Positions 10,490 through 22,577 of a stretch of DNA of 49,486 bases are shown piece after piece. Location: NCBI GenBank assembly GCA_902786275.1, contig CADACC010000004.1, positions 1 to 49,486 of the forward strand, in the 5' to 3' direction. Position numbers and translations under genes: made by a program. Every line of letters starts with the position of its first letter. Positions within the stretch are counted from its first letter, which is position 1. Source of the DNA: an uncultured Erysipelotrichaceae bacterium (GTDB taxonomy: Bacteria; Bacillota_I; Bacilli_A; RF39; UBA660). Under the pieces are notes generated by a model, which was not told where the DNA came from, made no database searches, and was given only the letters and a program-made list of their open reading frames with translations.

Positions 10490-10504
10490 AGAGGTTTGAT
10501 TAGT

Positions 10505-12331
10505 GTGATTATTGGTTATTCAATGTTAGTCATGAGTTTCGTTTATTTAACTGTAATGAGTATTTCATACTACTCAAAAAAGAGAATAAAAAACTCAGAA
10601 AATAAATTATATAATATCCTTATAATAGTTACATTTATGGGGATATTTTTAGAGACTTCTTGTATTTACATGGTACCAATAAGAGATATACACCCAGTAC
10701 TAAATGAATTAGCAAATAGATCTTATCTGCTATACATTTTAGCTTGGGTTTTTTTATTTACAAAATATATATTAATTATTTCAATTGATAATAAAAAGAA
10801 GATATCTATTAAGATAAAAGAGAATATTAAAAAGGTAAATAATTTAATGATATTTGCATTTGTTGCATGTAGTGCAACACTAATATTTTTACCTTTATAT
10901 TATCATTATGATGGTGTATATACTTATTCATATGGACCTGCAACAACTGCATTATTTATTCATATAGCTATAGCTATTGCAATATGGTTACTAAGTTTAT
11001 TTATAAATTTAAAAACTGTTGGTTATAAAAAATATATTCCATTATTTGTCTTCATATTGGGAGTTACACTTAATATGATTATAAGACTTTATAATCCAGG
11101 TGTTTTACTTATTACAGTAACTCAGGTTTTAATTACAGTTGTAATGTACTTTACGATTGAAAACCCTGATGTTCAGATGATAGAACAATTAAATATTGCA
11201 AGAGATAGAGCTGATAGAGCCAATAATGCAAAAACAGAGTTTTTATCAAGTATGTCTCATGAAATTAGAACACCTCTTAACGCAATTGATGGTTTTAGTC
11301 AGTTAATACTTGAAGAGGATAATATTGACACAATCAAAGAAGAAGCTAAAGATATAATGGCAGCATCGCAAAACTTACTTGAAATTGTAAATGGTATTTT
11401 AGATATATCTAAAATAGAAGCTGATAAACTTGAAATCGTAAATGTAGAATATGAACCAACTAAAATATTTGAAGAAGTAGGTAAACTTGCTAAGTCAAGA
11501 ATAGGTGAAAAACCAGTAGAATTCAAAACGCATATTGCAGAAGACTTACCAGATTATTTAAATGGTGATTATACAAGAATAAAACAAATAACCCTAAATT
11601 TACTAACAAATGCTGTTAAGTATACTAAAAATGGTTATGTTGATTTCTCTGTTAGATGTGTTACTCAGGACGATATTTGTAGACTTATCATCATGGTAAA
11701 AGATACTGGTATTGGTATCAAAAAAGAAAATGTTGATAAACTGTTTGAAAAATTTGAAAGATTTGATAAAGAGCAAAACATTACAATTGAGGGAACAGGG
11801 CTTGGCCTTGCAATTACTAAAAAACTTGTTAATTTAATGAATGGTCGTATAATTGCAGATTCAAGATATGGAACAGGTTCTATATTTGCTGTAGTTATAG
11901 ATCAAAGAATTGTTAATAAGAAAAAAGAAGAAAATGTCGAAGTAGTTTCGAATAAATCTATCTTTACAAATGCTAATATATTAATTGTTGATGATAACAA
12001 AATTAACTTAAAAGTCGCATCAAGACTTCTTGAATCTTACAAAGTTAAAACAGAAACAATGGATTCTGGATTTGAATGTATAGAAAAAATAAAATCTGGT
12101 TATAAATATGATTTAATTCTAATGGATGATATGATGCCAAAAATGAGTGGTACAGAAACTTTAAAAGAACTTAAGAAATTTTCTAACTTTAATACTCCAG
12201 TAGTTGCTTTAACTGCAAATGCGATTGCAGGAATGAAAGAAAAATATTTAAGTGAGGGTTTTGATGATTACATCTCAAAACCAATTGACAAAAAAGAACT
12301 TGAAAGAGTGTTAAATAAATATTTAAATTAA
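10505..12331 (+). CDS. Membrane hybrid histidine kinase
   Basis: Sensor kinase with an attached receiver. About seven hydrophobic segments occupy residues 1-215. They are followed by a short coiled linker, the HisKA dimerisation helix with phospho-His in SHEIRTPLN (near residue 251), and an ATPase domain with N box NLLTNAVKYT, G1 DTGIGI and G2 GTGLGLAI. A C-terminal receiver follows (ILIVDDNKINLK; phospho-Asp in LILMDDMMP near 540; KPID Lys). No PAS, HAMP or extracellular domain is seen, so the membrane bundle is the likely sensor. GTG at 10505 is chosen, with AGAGAGG 10 nt upstream; TTG at 10496 would be too close to it. The downstream Hpt-receiver protein is the probable relay partner. Confidence 0.92.
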   Translation: MIIGYSMLVMSFVYLTVMSISYYSKKRIKNSENKLYNILIIVTFMGIFLETSCIYMVPIRDIHPVLNELANRSYLLYILAWVFLFTKYILIISIDNKKKISIKIKENIKKVNNLMIFAFVACSATLIFLPLYYHYDGVYTYSYGPATTALFIHIAIAIAIWLLSLFINLKTVGYKKYIPLFVFILGVTLNMIIRLYNPGVLLITVTQVLITVVMYFTIENPDVQMIEQLNIARDRADRANNAKTEFLSSMSHEIRTPLNAIDGFSQLILEEDNIDTIKEEAKDIMAASQNLLEIVNGILDISKIEADKLEIVNVEYEPTKIFEEVGKLAKSRIGEKPVEFKTHIAEDLPDYLNGDYTRIKQITLNLLTNAVKYTKNGYVDFSVRCVTQDDICRLIIMVKDTGIGIKKENVDKLFEKFERFDKEQNITIEGTGLGLAITKKLVNLMNGRIIADSRYGTGSIFAVVIDQRIVNKKKEENVEVVSNKSIFTNANILIVDDNKINLKVASRLLESYKVKTETMDSGFECIEKIKSGYKYDLILMDDMMPKMSGTETLKELKKFSNFNTPVVALTANAIAGMKEKYLSEGFDDYISKPIDKKELERVLNKYLN

Positions 12332-12387
12332 CAAATCTAAATATTTATATGATATACTCTAATTAAGATAAATAGTAGGTGATTTTA

Positions 12388-13173
12388 GTGAAAGATACTG
12401 AATTTTTGAAAAAAAGAGGTGTAGATCTTGATAGTGCACTAGAACTATTAGGTGATTTATCATTTTATGATGAAACTCTAACTCAATTCTTGGAAGAAAA
12501 TAAAACAAGACTTCCAAATATTGCTAAATATAGAAAAGAAAACAATATGCCTGAATATGCTATTTTAGTACATGCACTAAAAAGTGATGCCAAGTATCTT
12601 GGATTTACAGATTTAGCTGAAATTGCTTATGCACATGAAATGGCTAGCAAAGCTAATGATACTAACACAGTTAATCAAAGATATAACGAACTTGTAAATA
12701 CATATAATAAATATGCGAGAATAGCATTTGAATATTTAGGACAAACATCATCTGGTCAAAATGATGGATCTAGTCAAAATAAGAATGATGAACCAACAAA
12801 TAAAAGAAGTAAAATAATTGTTGCTGATGATTCACTTATAATAAGTGGTATTGTAAAAAAAGCATTTGAAGATAAGTATGATGTATTGATTGCTGTTAAT
12901 GGTATTGAAGCAATTAATCTTATCCAAGGTGCTGTACCAGAAGAAATAGTAGCATTAATATTAGATTTAAACATGCCCAAAGCCGATGGCTTTGCAGTGC
13001 TTGATTATTTAAAAGAAAACGAATTATCTAAAAGAATACCTGTATGTATAATTACTGGTGATGTAGAAAAAGAAAAAATTGATCGAGCATTTACATATAA
13101 AGTAGTTGATGTTATACCAAAACCATTTACTATTGAAAACGTTAGAAATGTAATTGAAAAAATTAAATTTTAA
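12388..13173 (+). CDS. Hpt-receiver phosphorelay protein
   Basis: Two-domain relay protein of 261 residues. The N-terminal part is a histidine phosphotransfer (Hpt) domain with LVHALKSDAKYLG (His about residue 62). After a Gln/Asn/Ser-rich linker comes a receiver domain with VADDS, phospho-Asp in LILDLNMPKADG (about residue 193), ITGD and the conserved Lys in IPKPF. There is no DNA-binding, GGDEF or other output domain. A phosphoryl group from the preceding hybrid kinase would pass through this Hpt; the receiver may be a sink or an output by protein contact. GTG at 12388 follows TAGGTGATTTTA. Confidence 0.9.
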   Translation: MKDTEFLKKRGVDLDSALELLGDLSFYDETLTQFLEENKTRLPNIAKYRKENNMPEYAILVHALKSDAKYLGFTDLAEIAYAHEMASKANDTNTVNQRYNELVNTYNKYARIAFEYLGQTSSGQNDGSSQNKNDEPTNKRSKIIVADDSLIISGIVKKAFEDKYDVLIAVNGIEAINLIQGAVPEEIVALILDLNMPKADGFAVLDYLKENELSKRIPVCIITGDVEKEKIDRAFTYKVVDVIPKPFTIENVRNVIEKIKF

Positions 13174-13204: not shown

Positions 13205-13246
13205 TTATTTGAATAACTTATACATATCTTTAATTAGGTGATAGTG

Positions 13247-14389
13247 TTGAAAAAAATATTAACATGTATAGTAAGTCTATTTTTGCTTTGTAATATAACT
13301 CATGCAGAAGATATAAATTTACATGCTAAATCATCTATATTAGTTGAGGAATCTACTGGTAAAGTAATATATGAAAACAATGCAGATGAACAATTACATC
13401 CCGCATCAATGACAAAAATAATGAGTATGATTTTAATCTTTGAAGCTATTAACGAAGGAAAACTTAGTTTAAGTGATGATGTTGTAGTTTCAAAAGAATC
13501 AGCAAATATGGGCGGTAGCCAAGTATATTTAAATGAAGGGGAAACATATAAAGTAGAGGAATTACTAAAGGCTGTATCAATAGCATCTGCTAATGATGCG
13601 GTTGTTGCATTAGCTGAAAAGGTAAGTGGAACTAAAGAAAAATTTGTTGAAAAAATGAATGAAAAAGCAAGAATATTAAAATTAAAAAATACCAATTTTA
13701 TAAATCCCCATGGTCTTGATGATAATAATCACTATTCATCAGCAAGAGATATGGCATTTATGGCAAAAGAATTATTAAAATATGAAAATGTTTTAAGTTA
13801 TACAAGTAAATATGAAGATTATTTTAAGAAAAAGGATGGTTCATCTATATGGCTTGTAAATACAAATAAACTTGTAAAGTTTTATAATGGAATGGATGGA
13901 CTTAAAACAGGTTATACAGAAAAAGCTGGATATTGTTTAACTTCAACCGCTAAGAAAAATGGTTTAAGATTAATTACAGTTGTTATGGGTGAAGATTCAA
14001 TTGAAAACAGAACCGAAGATACACTTAAACTAATGAATTATGGATTTAATACTATAAAAAAAGAACTAATACTTGATAAAAATAAAGTTGTTGATAAATT
14101 AAAAATGGATTTATCATCAAAAAAATACATTGATGTGTATCTGAAAAATGATATTGTAAAAATATATGATATTAATAGTTCTAAAATAAAATATAATTAT
14201 AAAATAAAATATAAAGATAACATAAGATTCCCATTAAAAAAGGGTAGTATAATAGGAAAAATAAAAGTGAATTTAGATGATGGAACATCACTAAGTGAAG
14301 ATTTAATTATTAAAGAAAATGTTGATAAAATAGGGCTTATGAAATTATTTAGAAAAAATTTAAACATTTTTTCAATGGGTGTAAATTAA
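13247..14389 (+). CDS. D-alanyl-D-alanine carboxypeptidase (S11 family, DacA/DacF-like)
   Basis: Penicillin-binding protein that removes the terminal D-Ala of peptidoglycan pentapeptides outside the membrane. It has a signal peptide (LKKILTCIVSLFLLCNITHA, cleavage before EDIN), then the three serine active-site motifs in order: SMTK (S54), SAN (114-116) and KTG (220-222). The 380 residues include the beta-rich C-terminal domain typical of PBP5. TTG at 13247 is chosen because AGGTG lies 6 nt upstream and the signal peptide starts with LKK; GTG at 13244 is possible. In Bacillus the paralogue dacF sits upstream of spoIIA, while here such an operon lies 6 kb downstream. Confidence 0.93.
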   Translation: MKKILTCIVSLFLLCNITHAEDINLHAKSSILVEESTGKVIYENNADEQLHPASMTKIMSMILIFEAINEGKLSLSDDVVVSKESANMGGSQVYLNEGETYKVEELLKAVSIASANDAVVALAEKVSGTKEKFVEKMNEKARILKLKNTNFINPHGLDDNNHYSSARDMAFMAKELLKYENVLSYTSKYEDYFKKKDGSSIWLVNTNKLVKFYNGMDGLKTGYTEKAGYCLTSTAKKNGLRLITVVMGEDSIENRTEDTLKLMNYGFNTIKKELILDKNKVVDKLKMDLSSKKYIDVYLKNDIVKIYDINSSKIKYNYKIKYKDNIRFPLKKGSIIGKIKVNLDDGTSLSEDLIIKENVDKIGLMKLFRKNLNIFSMGVN

Positions 14390-14419
14390 ACACAACCAAA
14401 TAAAATGGTTGTGTTTTAT
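14388..14419 (+). terminator. Terminator after the S11 carboxypeptidase
   Basis: AAACACAACCA (14388-14398) pairs with TGGTTGTGTTT (14406-14416), followed by TATTG. Strong 11-bp stem, weak U-tract. Confidence 0.75.
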
Positions 14420-14469
14420 TGTTGTTATCAACTATAATAAATATGAATAATAATATAGGAGATATATTT

Positions 14470-15228
14470 ATGAAGATAAAAGTTGGAAAAGCTATAGATT
14501 TATTTTTTATGATAGTTTGTTTATTTTCCTTTATATTTTCACTTGTTCATATAATTAATTGGAAATTAAATAATAGAGCAAACAAGAAAATAAATGAAAT
14601 AACACATGAATATATAACTGTTGGTGGAGAAGATAAATATAAAATTGATTTTGATAAATTAAAAGATATTAATAGTGATGTGATAGGTTATATAAGAGTA
14701 AATGGAACAAATATAGATTATGTTTTAGTTCAGGGAAAAGATAATGAATACTATTTATCTAAAAATTTAGAGAAAAAAGATAATAAATCAGGTTGGATAT
14801 TTTTAGATTACAAAAATAAACTTGATGGAACTGATAAAAATATTATAATTTATGGACATAACACAGTAGATAAAAGTATGTTTGGATCCCTAAAAAATGT
14901 ATTAAAAGAAGAGTGGTTTAATAATAAAAATAATCACGAAATAGTTTTTGTTACTGAGTCAGGTTTAGTTAAATATAAAGTCTTTTCAACATATAAAATA
15001 GATAATGAGGAGTTTTATATAAAAACAGATTTTACATCAGATGAAGAATATAAAAGCTTTATCAAAAAGATTAAAAAAAGATCATATTTTGACTTTGATG
15101 TAGATACTGAAAATGTTAGTCAGATACTTACACTTTCAACATGTTCAAATCAAGGAAAGAAGAGAGTTGTTCTTCACGCTATAAAAGTAGATGAAGAAAT
15201 TGTAGAAGGAGAAAGTACAAATGAGTAA
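14470..15228 (+). CDS. Class B sortase
   Basis: Membrane-anchored transpeptidase that cleaves a sorting motif and links proteins to peptidoglycan. One N-terminal membrane segment (AIDLFFMIVCLFSFIFSLVHI) is followed by the sortase fold. Catalytic residues are visible: His in YGHNT (about 130), Cys in LSTC (about 225) and Arg in KKRVV (about 232). The GWIFLDYKN...YGHN...MFG.L pattern is typical of class B. ATG at 14470 has AGGAG 8 nt upstream; a start at 14419 would have no such site. No obvious NPxTN substrate gene is in the window. It overlaps the next gene by 8 nt. Confidence 0.92.
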   Translation: MKIKVGKAIDLFFMIVCLFSFIFSLVHIINWKLNNRANKKINEITHEYITVGGEDKYKIDFDKLKDINSDVIGYIRVNGTNIDYVLVQGKDNEYYLSKNLEKKDNKSGWIFLDYKNKLDGTDKNIIIYGHNTVDKSMFGSLKNVLKEEWFNNKNNHEIVFVTESGLVKYKVFSTYKIDNEEFYIKTDFTSDEEYKSFIKKIKKRSYFDFDVDTENVSQILTLSTCSNQGKKRVVLHAIKVDEEIVEGESTNE

Positions 15229-18303: not shown

Positions 18304-19716
18304 ATGCCAAGAAAGAAGAAGAAAAAACATTCTCCTTTAATTGTGTATTTATTTATATCGATGTTAATAATTACATCTATTACGATAGGTTTAATCTATT
18401 TCATAGATATTTTACCATTTAATTATTTTTCATTATTAACTGGTTTAATATTAGTAATAGATTTAATATTTTCAGTTATGTTGTTTTCAAGTAAACCTGT
18501 TGTTAAAGTCTTTGGTGGTTTAGTAACAACCTTTTATATATTAATTATGATACTTGCAATTATATATGAACTTAATACAATAGATTTCTTGAAGAAAATT
18601 GGAGATAAAGAATATATTACACTTAATTACAATGTCGTTGTTTTAAAATCAAGTTCATATACTGATCTACCTAGTATAAAGGGTGAAAAAGTTGGTATTG
18701 TAAATGGATATAAAGAAGAAGTAACAAGTAAACTTGATAAAAAAGTAAAAGTAAAATATACTTCTTATTCTAATTATTCAGAACTTGTTGATAGACTTAT
18801 TAATAAGCATATTAATGTTGTATTACTTGAAGATTCACAGTATAAAATATTGGAAGAAGAGTATACTGGTTTTGAAAATAAAGTAAGTGTTATATATAAG
18901 TTTAGTGTCGATGTAAAACAAAAAACAGAAAAAGAAAAAACTGATATAACTAAAAAACCATTTAATATATTTATATCTGGTATTGATACATATGGAAATA
19001 TAAATAGTGTATCAAGAAGTGATGTAAATATGATTATGAGTATTAATCCAACTGATAAAAAGATTCTTCTTACATCTATTCCAAGAGATTATTATGTTAA
19101 ATTATCTGGTATAAATGAGTATGATAAATTAACTCATGCAGGAATGTATGGAATAGATACATCAATTGATACAGTTGAAACCTTACTTGATACTAAAATT
19201 AATTACTATATTAAAGTAAACTTCTCATCTTTAGTTAAAGTTGTAAATACTTTAGATGGTATTGATGTTGACTCTAAATATCAATTTACATCACAAGATG
19301 GATATTCATTTAAAAAGGGAATTAACCATTTAAATGGAAAGAAAGCTTTATCTTTTGCAAGAGAAAGAAAAGCTCTACCTGATGGAGACAGATCTAGAGG
19401 AGAAAATCATCAAGCAGTGCTTGCTGCTATTATTAATAAAGCTTCATCAAAAAGTATTCTAACAAACTATAATAGTTTACTTAAATCTTTAAAACCATCA
19501 CTTGTAACAAATTTATCTAATAAAGAATTAACAAGCTTTATAAAAATGCAAATAGATAAAGATATTAAGTGGAATATAACATACGTTAATTTAGATGGAT
19601 CAGATGGATATGAATATACATATTCATATGCAAAAAATAAATTATACGTAATGATACCTGATGAAGAAACTGTTGAAAATGCTAAAGAAGAAATAAGAAA
19701 AATATTAGAAAAGTAA
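18304..19716 (+). CDS. LytR-CpsA-Psr (LCP) family glycopolymer ligase
   Basis: Membrane enzyme that transfers lipid-linked teichoic acid or capsule polymers to peptidoglycan. Three hydrophobic segments occupy residues 10-100, then a roughly 110-residue accessory region, then the LCP domain from about residue 220. Signatures: SRSDVNMIMSINP, LLTSIPRDYYVKL, LTHAGMYGI, and ALSFARERKALPDGDRSRGENHQ, with the Arg/Asp residues that bind the lipid pyrophosphate. The three-helix N-terminus is longer than the usual single anchor. GGAAGTGA precedes the ATG. Confidence 0.93.
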   Translation: MPRKKKKKHSPLIVYLFISMLIITSITIGLIYFIDILPFNYFSLLTGLILVIDLIFSVMLFSSKPVVKVFGGLVTTFYILIMILAIIYELNTIDFLKKIGDKEYITLNYNVVVLKSSSYTDLPSIKGEKVGIVNGYKEEVTSKLDKKVKVKYTSYSNYSELVDRLINKHINVVLLEDSQYKILEEEYTGFENKVSVIYKFSVDVKQKTEKEKTDITKKPFNIFISGIDTYGNINSVSRSDVNMIMSINPTDKKILLTSIPRDYYVKLSGINEYDKLTHAGMYGIDTSIDTVETLLDTKINYYIKVNFSSLVKVVNTLDGIDVDSKYQFTSQDGYSFKKGINHLNGKKALSFARERKALPDGDRSRGENHQAVLAAIINKASSKSILTNYNSLLKSLKPSLVTNLSNKELTSFIKMQIDKDIKWNITYVNLDGSDGYEYTYSYAKNKLYVMIPDEETVENAKEEIRKILEK

Positions 19717-19736
19717 CCAAATTGGTTACTTTTTTT
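19711..19736 (+). terminator. Terminator after the LCP gene
   Basis: AAGTAACCA (19711-19719) and TGGTTACTT (19723-19731), loop AAT, then a T-run. Confidence 0.93.
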
Positions 19737-19745
19737 GATATGTTT

Positions 19746-19752
19746 TGTCGAA
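19746..19752 (+). promoter_or_regulatory. Candidate Spo0A box upstream of the sporulation operon
   Basis: TGTCGAA, in the context TTTTGTCGAATCG, is an exact match to the 0A box core and lies 53 nt upstream of the STAS gene start. In Bacillus, Spo0A~P activates spoIIA through such boxes. GAAT at 19750-19753 also resembles a sigma-H -10 core, but no clear -35 is seen. Confidence 0.5.
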
Positions 19753-19804
19753 TCGCTTTTATTTTATTTTAATTTGTTTTAATATGTCCATCAAGGTGAT
19801 AAAA

Positions 19805-20131
19805 GTGAACTATGAATATAATAAAGGAATTCTTTTTGTTAGATTTAATGAAAAATTAGATCATCATATTTCTTATAAAATAAATTCGTTTTTAGTTCCT
19901 AAAATATTAGATCAAAAAATAAAATATATAGTATTTAATTTTTATAATGTAGGTTATGTTGATGATTTTGTTATTGATGCTTTATTAAATGTTAAGTGCG
20001 CAGTTAAAGTAAATCATGGGCAAATGTGCATATGTGAAGTGTCAAAAAATATTGAAAAAAAGATAAATAAAATGAAGATGAGAAAAGTAGGTAGTGAATT
20101 AAATGCATTAAAGTTAATTAAGGTGATATAA
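19805..20131 (+). CDS. SpoIIAA-like STAS-domain protein lacking the phosphorylatable Ser
   Basis: Homologue of the anti-sigma-F antagonist SpoIIAA, 108 residues. From LDHH (residues 18-21) to YVDD (51-54) it aligns without gaps to my recollection of Bacillus SpoIIAA (LDHH ... FMDSSGLG). At the phosphorylation site, Ser58 of SpoIIAA corresponds to Asp54 here, and the next Ser and Gly are Phe55 and Val56. Normally unphosphorylated SpoIIAA displaces SpoIIAB from sigma-F; no spoIIAB follows here. GTG at 19805 has AAGGTG 6 nt upstream; a start at 19745 would lie next to the terminator and lacks an RBS. It is immediately adjacent to the sigma gene. Confidence 0.85.
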   Translation: MNYEYNKGILFVRFNEKLDHHISYKINSFLVPKILDQKIKYIVFNFYNVGYVDDFVIDALLNVKCAVKVNHGQMCICEVSKNIEKKINKMKMRKVGSELNALKLIKVI

Positions 20132-20779
20132 ATGGATGCAGAGATAGAAAACTTAAATAATTTAATCTATAGTATCGCTAGATCATTTACAAACGATGAA
20201 GAACTAATAAAGGATTTATATCAAGAAGCTATAATTGGTATTATTAATGCGAAAAAGAATTATGATACGAATTCTAATGCTAAGTTTTCAACATATGCAA
20301 GAATGTATATTTATGGTGAAATATTTAAATACTTTAATGGTGATAAATCGTTTAAAGTAAATAAAGAAATTGTTAAAATGTATAAACTTATTTTAAAAAC
20401 AAATGATTTACTTTCTCAAGAATTAAAAAAAGTGCCCACAATAAGTGAAATAGCAAATTATTTAGGTATTGATGAAGAAACTATTCAAAATACTATTATG
20501 GTTATGAAAAACACCCTAAGTTTAGATCATGAGTTTGATGAAGATGATTCATCAAATATGTATAATTTTATAAAAACAAGTGATTCATATAATGATTTAT
20601 TCTTTGAAGAATTGTTTGAAGGATTAACTGAAGAAGAGAAAAACTTAATAAAATGTAGATATATTGATGGTTATTCACAAAGTGAAACTGCTAGTATAAT
20701 GAATATGTCACAGTCGGGTGTATCTAGAATGGAAAAAGAAAGTATAAATAAAATGAGAGTAAGAACAAAAGAAGTATAA
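20132..20779 (+). CDS. Sporulation sigma factor, SigF/SigG-like
   Basis: RNA polymerase sigma-70 family factor of 215 residues, shorter than Bacillus sigma-F (about 255). Region 2 is visible (DLYQEAIIGIINAKKNYDTNSNAKFSTYARMYIYGEI, split here as DLYQEAIIGI and AKFSTYARMYIYGEI). Region 3 follows (PTISEIANYLGIDEETI), and region 4 carries the helix-turn-helix YSQSETASIMNMSQSGVSRM. Position after a SpoIIAA-like gene and before spoVAC-AD-AE points to the sigma-F slot. AAGGTGATATAA serves as RBS and contains the upstream stop. F versus G cannot be settled from sequence alone. Confidence 0.85.
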   Translation: MDAEIENLNNLIYSIARSFTNDEELIKDLYQEAIIGIINAKKNYDTNSNAKFSTYARMYIYGEIFKYFNGDKSFKVNKEIVKMYKLILKTNDLLSQELKKVPTISEIANYLGIDEETIQNTIMVMKNTLSLDHEFDEDDSSNMYNFIKTSDSYNDLFFEELFEGLTEEEKNLIKCRYIDGYSQSETASIMNMSQSGVSRMEKESINKMRVRTKEV

Positions 20780-20821: not shown

Positions 20822-21265
20822 TTGAATAAAAAAGATTATAAAAGGCTTGTTGATAGATATATAAAAAAACCAAATTATATGCATAACATTAAAGTTGCAT
20901 TTATCTCAGGTGGACTGCTTGGTAGCATTTGTGAGATTATGTACAAATTATTAATATATCTAACCCCATTATCAAAAGTTGAAGCTTCAAGTTTAATTAC
21001 ATTTTTAATGATTCTTATTACTTCATTTTTTACATCAATTGGTATCTTCGATAAATTTATTACAAAGTATCGATCAGGTTTAATTATACCAACTACTGGG
21101 TTTGCACACTCTGTATCAAGTAGTTTAGTTGATAGCAAAAAAGAAGGATTAATTACAGGACTTGGTAGTAATATGTTTATTCTTGCAGGAAGTGTAGTTT
21201 TATATTCAACAATTGCAGCATTTTTTTTAGTTATAGTTAAGGTGATAATCTTATGCTTAGTTTAA
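20822..21265 (+). CDS. spoVAC: Stage V sporulation protein AC
   Basis: Inner-membrane protein of the SpoVA channel that moves dipicolinic acid into and out of the spore core; the Bacillus protein behaves as a mechanosensitive channel. 147 residues with about four membrane segments. The family signature is visible: FDKFITKYRSGLIIPTTGFAHS, then EGLITGLGSNMFILAGSVVLY. Start is TTG at 20822, supported by AGGAGG 9 nt upstream. It overlaps spoVAD by 13 nt. Confidence 0.95.
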   Translation: MNKKDYKRLVDRYIKKPNYMHNIKVAFISGGLLGSICEIMYKLLIYLTPLSKVEASSLITFLMILITSFFTSIGIFDKFITKYRSGLIIPTTGFAHSVSSSLVDSKKEGLITGLGSNMFILAGSVVLYSTIAAFFLVIVKVIILCLV

Positions 21266-22230
21266 AATTTAATAATGTATATATAAATGATTATGATGCA
21301 ATTGTTGGACCTAATGAAATTAAAGGTAATACTAAGAATATTAAAAATGTAATTAGTGATTTTTATTATGATGAAAAAACCTTTGAACTTGCGCAAATTA
21401 AAATGGAGAGAAATGTTATATATAATATCTTAAAAAATAATAATCTTACAAATAATAATGTTGATTTAATAATAGGTGGAGATTTATCAAATCAAATAGC
21501 ATGTACAAGTTACTCACTTGATACTTTTGATATCTCATTTTTAGGAATGTATGGAGCATGTTCTACATTTATAGAAAGTATAATTGTCGCATCTAGTTTA
21601 ATAAGTAATAGTAATATAAAAAAAGCTATATGTTTAACAGCAAATCATAACTTAGTAGCTGAAAGACAATTTAGGTATCCAGTAGAGTATGGTGCTTTAA
21701 AAAATGAGAATGCAACATTTACTTCAACTGCAAGTGTTGCGTGTTTACTATCATGTAAAAAAGGTAATATAAGGGTAAGTAAAGGAACAATAGGTGCAGT
21801 AAAAAAATTAGGTATTAATGATCCTAATTATGTTGGAGCAGTGATGGCACCATCATGTGCTGATGCAATATACAATCATTTTATAAATTTTAATATTAAA
21901 CCTAATTACTATGATTTAGTATTAACAGGAGATTTAGGTAGTGTAGGAGTAAGTATATTAAAAGATTATCTAAAAGAAGAATATAATCTTGATTTAAAAA
22001 ATATCATTGATGCAGGATCTAAACTGTATAAAACTATAGAAGATATAAATGATGGCGCAAGTGGTCCAGCAACTTTACCTTTATACTTATTTTATAATGT
22101 TCTACAAAATAAAAAATATAAAAAAATTCTGGTAGTAGGTACTGGGGCACTTCATTCTAAGACACTAGTAAATCAAAAAGAAGAAATCCCATCTATATCT
22201 CACGCAATAGAACTTGAGGTATTATCATGA
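21253..22230 (+). CDS. spoVAD: Stage V sporulation protein AD
   Basis: Thiolase-fold, non-catalytic protein that binds dipicolinic acid for the SpoVA channel. 325 residues. Recognisable segments: GGDLSNQ, FLGMYGACSTFIESI, AERQFRYPVEYG, DGASGPATLPLY and the C-terminal VVGTGALHS. The conserved Arg in RQFRYP is encoded by AGG. It ends with the only TGA stop I find in the window, in an ATGA overlap with spoVAE; a TAA follows two codons later. AAGGTGATAATCTT is the RBS. Confidence 0.96.
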   Translation: MLSLKFNNVYINDYDAIVGPNEIKGNTKNIKNVISDFYYDEKTFELAQIKMERNVIYNILKNNNLTNNNVDLIIGGDLSNQIACTSYSLDTFDISFLGMYGACSTFIESIIVASSLISNSNIKKAICLTANHNLVAERQFRYPVEYGALKNENATFTSTASVACLLSCKKGNIRVSKGTIGAVKKLGINDPNYVGAVMAPSCADAIYNHFINFNIKPNYYDLVLTGDLGSVGVSILKDYLKEEYNLDLKNIIDAGSKLYKTIEDINDGASGPATLPLYLFYNVLQNKKYKKILVVGTGALHSKTLVNQKEEIPSISHAIELEVLS

Positions 22231-22577
22231 GTATAATTTATTCATTTCTATTTGCAGGAATTATATGTATGATTGCTGAAATAATTCTAAATTTCACAAA
22301 ACTAACACCAGGCCATGTAACATCATTATTTTCTGTAATGGGTGCAGTATTAAGTTTTTTAGGTATTTATAAATTCTTTATTAATAAATGTAATATGGGC
22401 GCTACAGTTTTAATATCAAATTTTGGAAACAGTTTATATGAATCTGCTTTTAATGGATATTTAAAAAGTGGTATATTTGGTATTTTTAAAGGTATGTTTA
22501 CTAATTCATCATTTGTATTATCATTAACAATTATTTTATCATTTATCTTTGCTTGTTTCTTCAAATCTAAGGACTAA
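22227..22577 (+). CDS. spoVAE: Stage V sporulation protein AE (AEb type)
   Basis: Small membrane subunit of the SpoVA channel, 116 residues with three or four membrane helices. Family pattern: KLTPGHVTSLFSVMGAVLSFLGIY and MGATVLISNFGNSLYESA, related to SpoVAC. It starts by ATGA overlap with spoVAD. SpoVAA, SpoVAB, SpoVAEa and SpoVAF of the Bacillus operon are absent, leaving the AC-AD-AEb core also seen in clostridia. Confidence 0.94.
   Translation: MSIIYSFLFAGIICMIAEIILNFTKLTPGHVTSLFSVMGAVLSFLGIYKFFINKCNMGATVLISNFGNSLYESAFNGYLKSGIFGIFKGMFTNSSFVLSLTIILSFIFACFFKSKD

Follow-up and report, generated by a model that had tools for sequence, protein, structure and literature searches.

The partner switch that governs sigma-F has probably been dismantled in the sigF operon of RF39 bacteria, leaving sigma-F set mainly by Spo0A-driven transcription and the remaining SpoIIAA-like STAS protein independent of phosphorylation. 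The absence of SpoIIAB and SpoIIE, the erosion of the phosphorylation site, the selection on the STAS gene, its repeated loss and the conservation of the promoter can all be read from the genomes. SpoIIAB is both the anti-sigma factor and the kinase of SpoIIAA, and SpoIIE is the phosphatase; the SpoIIE-SpoIIAA-SpoIIAB switch activates sigma-F, the first forespore regulator, and is the textbook start of the cell-specific programme.

Organization of the sigF operon

The window (the whole stretch of DNA analysed, 49,486 nucleotides) belongs to a genome of 1.10 Mb in 68 contigs with a completeness of 89.6%. The operon and its surroundings contain the following features.

13238-14389, forward strand: D-Ala-D-Ala carboxypeptidase gene of the DacF/PBP5 type (PF00768, 1.4e-80)
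19707-19735, forward strand: intrinsic terminator after the LCP gene, dividing the STAS-sigma unit from the upstream genes
19743-19752, forward strand: predicted Spo0A box TTTTGTCGAA, core TGTCGAA at 19746-19752, the sole exact match in the window
19780-19785, forward strand: probable -10 element TAATAT, beginning 34 nt downstream from the first base of the 0A core
19805-20131, forward strand: SpoIIAA-like STAS gene (108 aa, GTG start, stop TAA at 20129-20131)
19964-19966, forward strand: codon of Asp54, the counterpart of Ser58, the phosphorylated residue in SpoIIAA
20132-20779, forward strand: sigma-F-type sigma factor gene (215 aa, ATG at 20132)
20822-21265, forward strand: spoVAC (TIGR02838, 2.4e-34)
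21253-22230, forward strand: spoVAD (TIGR02845, 1.1e-89)
22227-22577, forward strand: spoVAE (TIGR02839, 1e-28)

The STAS gene, for which an alternative in-frame GTG is present at 19796, is followed on the same strand by the sigma factor gene with a gap of 0 nt and no spoIIAB in between, exactly at the coordinates from which the first-pass annotation had concluded that there is no room for spoIIAB. It heads the sigF-spoVA run, the position expected of SpoIIAA, and sigF followed by spoVAC, spoVAD and spoVAE is a known gene order. The usual upstream neighbour of spoIIA is dacF; the dacF-like gene of the window is set apart from the STAS-sigma operon by four genes. A class B sortase gene (14419-15228) is located between the dacF-like and LCP genes, upstream of the sigF operon. 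At 10496-13173, on the 5' side of the dacF-like gene, lie the genes for a membrane hybrid histidine kinase-receiver protein and, after it, an Hpt-receiver protein, a pair which possibly serves as phosphorelay input.

The sigma factor was assigned to the SigB/F/G family (TIGR02980, 6e-41), with sigma-70 regions 2, 3 and 4 present, and scored below the cut-off of the sigma-F equivalog TIGR02885 (113.5 bits versus 321.45). In the sigma factor tree, the sigma-F sequences of the family cluster as a single group (100/98) that excludes sigma-G and sigma-E. The genome has a separate sigma-G, distinct from the sigma factor of the window, which is found together with sigma-E on a different contig. The sigE-sigG pair of two congeners lies 3' of ftsZ and spoIIGA. 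Judged from these sequences, the locus represents the RF39 version of the sigF operon, and its sigma factor would be expected to act in the forespore.

Distribution within RF39

The kinase-less STAS-sigma pattern is a trait of the whole GTDB order RF39 (the family of UBA660) and not of one genome. The same arrangement was observed in, among others, the metagenome-assembled genomes UBA660 and UBA1423, and 115 of 154 sampled family genomes had a STAS profile match. The distance between the STAS and sigma genes ranged from -35 to +69 nt in 203 sampled family pairs, representing 172 loci distinct over STAS residues 6-60, some of them closely related. In six relatives from other families, by contrast, this distance was 394-506 nt and was filled by spoIIAB. 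With about 200 family loci adjacent, against a spoIIAB-filled gap in the relatives, the arrangement is no product of chance or local accident.

A few deviating layouts were seen. In genome G005 (L025/L128/L311), metK is inserted between the STAS gene and sigma-F, breaking the usual adjacency, and in its sister genome G174, which belongs to the same genus, STAS gene and sigma-F occur on separate contigs. A small helix-turn-helix gene separates sigma-F from spoVAC in G026 (L016, 2456-2698).

Absence of SpoIIAB and SpoIIE

Kinases of the spoIIAB/rsbW type were sought genome- and family-wide, and none was found by Pfam or by profile. With PF13581 there was no match in the window's genus, while matches across the rest of the family were almost all in histidine-kinase-sized frames; RsbT/RsbW-type kinases were not found in these searches. 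One match in a short frame (G032, L046) was rejected as SpoIIAB, being a split histidine kinase. A SpoIIAB profile made from the six relatives detected no SpoIIAB in 149 family genomes, although it would not recognize an anti-sigma-F that is unrelated or has diverged very far. Its best family score was 44.7 bits, versus 165-245 bits for the real SpoIIAB of the relatives, and nearly all family matches were in frames of more than 300 aa, again the size of histidine kinases.

The PP2C phosphatase domain of SpoIIE was present in none of 37 family genomes; it was detected in the B. subtilis control as well as in classmates that have SpoIIAB. Spo0A and SpoIIR were each found in 35 of 37 family genomes, and spoIIGA, sigE and sigG are retained beside ftsZ in the window's genus. 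The depth of the searches and the completeness of metagenome-assembled genomes weaken a claim of absence for any one genome, but less so family-wide. Both spoIIAB and spoIIE are likewise missing from two congeners whose assemblies consist of 3 and 9 contigs (completeness 91-93%), which makes patchy assembly an unlikely cause. The absence of both genes in RF39 was already reported in 2024 in Microb Genom (PMC10868615). A spoIIAB gene, accompanied by Ser at the phosphorylation site and the normal gene order, occurs only outside the family, as expected for a derived loss.

The STAS protein and its phosphorylation site

The STAS protein aligned without gaps to SpoIIAA (PDB 1th8), residues 3-89 on 7-93, with E=9e-7. 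Its best NCBIfam profile is TIGR02886 spore_II_AA (3.8e-11), with a score under the equivalog cut-off (42.9 bits versus 114.75), and the match to PF01740 is above cut-off at 47.8 bits. An AlphaFold2 model (mean pLDDT 92.6) has as its closest fold the SpoIIAA of the SpoIIAB-SpoIIAA crystals (1th8, TM 0.84), with RsbS/RsbV STAS proteins as lower-ranking structural matches.

Asp53-Asp54-Phe55-Val56 of the window aligns on Asp57-Ser58-Ser59-Gly60 of SpoIIAA, so that the substitutions noted at first pass in a gapless alignment, of Ser58 by Asp54 and of the next Ser-Gly by Phe-Val, hold against 1th8. When this position was scored against the presence of spoIIAB, Ser was found in 15 of 172 distinct family sequences, which are without spoIIAB, versus all six relatives with spoIIAB. 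Together with a SpoIIAB that is undetectable family-wide, this bears out the earlier proposal that loss of the kinase accompanies loss of its target site.

The residues occurring at position 58 among the 172 sequences include N (30), E (28), S (15), I (14), M (13), L (13), K (12) and D (11). With an entropy of 3.67 bits, the column is tied for the highest of 111 (one of the two most variable), and its neighbours are conserved (Asp57 90%, Gly60 86%). Asp23, His24 and His25 of SpoIIAA are kept in 24, 7 and 3 of the 172 sequences; the window protein, unlike most of the family, has retained the LDHH motif. In the SpoIIAB-bearing relatives, LDHH and DSSG are constant or nearly so. The variability of column 58 and the erosion of LDHH indicate that the constraint on kinase-related features is gone.

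The first-pass annotation had also suggested that Asp54 is a fixed mimic of phospho-SpoIIAA. Asp or Glu does occupy position 58 in 39 of the 172 sequences, the window and one congener included, but uncharged and basic residues together outnumber these acidic ones by more than 3:1, and so variable a column, with Asp itself in 11 sequences, leaves this suggestion hardly credible. The trait of the family appears to be the loss of Ser and not the gain of Asp, with Asp54 incidental.

The same motifs bear on the idea that a diverged or unrelated anti-sigma factor elsewhere in the genome holds sigma-F and is counteracted by the STAS protein without phosphorylation. Such a factor would account for the retention of the STAS protein, but no candidate emerged with PF13581 or the SpoIIAB profile, and LDHH and DSSG are eroded in the family though near-constant where SpoIIAB is present. 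We regard a hidden factor of this kind as distinctly improbable.

Promoter of the operon

The predicted Spo0A box upstream of the STAS gene follows the 0A box consensus (PMC3485338), and the GTG start of the window's STAS gene is located 59 nt after the 0A core. Among the 172 family loci, 157 carried an exact TGTCGAA ahead of the STAS gene, versus 1.7 expected, in a single orientation and at a nearly constant distance of about 60 nt from the start (mostly 50-79 nt); there was none in the coding control. Alignment of the 157 promoters on the 0A box revealed a conserved, -10-like TATATT/TAAATT block at +34 to +39. By the predicted 0A box at its promoter, the operon is a putative member of the Spo0A regulon.

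The exact core was also present about 110 nt upstream in three of the six SpoIIAB-bearing relatives. The box is evidence of Spo0A control but, as relatives with SpoIIAB have it too, not of a replacement of the kinase by this control. Control by Spo0A is probably ancestral and did not arise in RF39 as a substitute, and the novelty of RF39 would be that no second layer of control is visible above Spo0A.

Loss and retention of the STAS gene

Ten sampled family genomes have retained sigma-F without an upstream STAS gene. Nine of these had no STAS profile match genome-wide and the tenth (G028) had a lone marginal one (E = 1e-3) elsewhere in the genome. The 0A box was located 58-84 nt before the start of the sigma-F match in eight of the ten loci, and in one (G066) a dacF-type gene lies immediately 5' of sigma-F. 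Mapped on the sigma-F tree, this pattern takes 10 changes, at least 4 of them forced by well-supported branches. As several lineages deleted the gene while keeping sigma-F behind the same promoter, the STAS protein appears to be useful but dispensable.

In close pairs, dN/dS of the STAS gene was about 0.05-0.15, similar to sigma-F. These values show that the predicted protein has a function and suggest that it is still used in most lineages. Family-specific motifs are conserved at its N-terminus (E-x-x-K-G-[IV]-L-F-V-R) and C-terminus (E-L-x-A). These motifs, purifying selection equal in strength to that acting on sigma-F and immediate adjacency in about 200 loci would fit a STAS protein that took the place of SpoIIAB as direct regulator of sigma-F, either as anti-sigma factor or as co-factor. 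Against such a role stand the lineages, at least four, that dropped the STAS gene and retained sigma-F plus promoter, and the genus in which metK separates the two genes. An AlphaFold2 readthrough model, a single STAS-sigma chain with Gly in place of the stop codon (41 paired sequences), also yielded no confident joint arrangement (pTM 0.40), but sigma factors are flexible and the link is one residue long, and the two proteins may bind all the same. The STAS and sigma parts each folded well, and the Foldseek matches listed for the model comprised sigma-factor or RNA-polymerase-related chains and no SpoIIAA. By hand count, spoIIAB and sigF were in frame in none of the six SpoIIAB-bearing relatives. 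Direct regulation by the STAS protein is considered unlikely.

Decay of sporulation, with the operon as a relic, would agree with RF39 genomes of about 1.1 Mb and with the lack of sigma-F in 8 of 19 checked STAS-negative family genomes. Strong purifying selection on both STAS and sigma-F, the retention of Spo0A, SpoIIR, SpoIIGA, sigma-E, sigma-G and spoVA, and the conserved promoter make it very improbable.

The eight RF39 genomes without a match at sigma-F level (G009, G063, G065, G070, G086, G089, G095 and G109) have mostly sigma-A-like matches only; G095 retains a sigma-G-like one, and a Spo0A-like C-terminal domain persists in G009. Possibly, these are non-sporulating lineages.

A second STAS-like protein of about 77-82 aa, which has no Pfam match and is missing the C-terminal third, has its gene next to a YabP/YqfC-like gene, with a Mur-ligase gene nearby and in most loci yqfD, also a sporulation gene, farther along. 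It was located as follows.

L303, 736-975: second STAS-like gene
L304, 760-1005, reverse strand: second STAS-like gene
L305, 810-1043: second STAS-like gene
L306, 753-986: second STAS-like gene
L307, 779-1078, reverse strand: second STAS-like gene
L350, 1498-1731: second STAS-like gene

By profile, this locus is present apart from sigma-F in roughly 27 of 149 family genomes, some of which have lost the sigma-F-linked STAS gene.

Proposed control of sigma-F

The most likely course of events is that sigma-F became free of partner switching in the ancestor of RF39. It would not be held by an anti-sigma factor of the SpoIIAB type, and its activity would be set mainly by Spo0A-dependent transcription from the 0A-box promoter, after which SpoIIR would signal to SpoIIGA and sigma-E as usual. 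The remaining STAS protein may act without phosphorylation, either as an accessory at sigma-F or together with a different partner. A further-reaching version, to which we give slightly less than even chances, is that RF39 confines sigma-F to the forespore without anti-sigma factor, phosphatase or phosphorylation, by Spo0A-timed synthesis plus another asymmetry, and that the orphan SpoIIAA-type protein was repurposed.

A large and diverse gut family with sigma-F, SpoIIR, SpoIIGA, sigma-E and sigma-G but no SpoIIE-SpoIIAA-SpoIIAB switch would show the switch to be replaceable, and RF39 genomes are a place for studying a minimal alternative to it. The prediction of sporulation is affected as well: one classifier, in which every predicted spore-former has spoIIAB, gives RF39 a sporulation of 0% (PMC12536801), versus a gene-content survey that predicts spores (PMC10868615).

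Comparison with known systems

The main text of the RF39 survey refers neither to spoIIAA nor to the eroded Ser, the repeated STAS loss or the promoter described here (PMC10868615). Our literature search found no report of spoIIAB loss together with spoIIAA. As far as we found, the eroded Ser, the repeated STAS loss and the conserved promoter are new, the absence of spoIIAB and spoIIE being known since 2024.

The RF39 operon resembles the spoIIA operon (spoIIAA-spoIIAB-sigF) of Bacillus and Clostridia in the STAS-sigma order, the downstream spoVA genes, the Spo0A control and the SpoIIAA fold, but differs in being without spoIIAB, without a genomic SpoIIE and without a conserved phosphoacceptor Ser. 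RsbS and RsbV share the STAS fold with the RF39 protein, but work in stressosome or sigma-B switches with kinases of the RsbT/RsbW type, which were not found here. SpoIIAA, SpoIIAB, sigma-F and SpoIIE are listed in all examined spore-forming bacilli and clostridia (PMC3533761). Candidatus Arthromitus (segmented filamentous bacteria) is likewise a streamlined spore-former but, unlike RF39, retains SpoIIAA, SpoIIAB and SpoIIE (PMC3533761).
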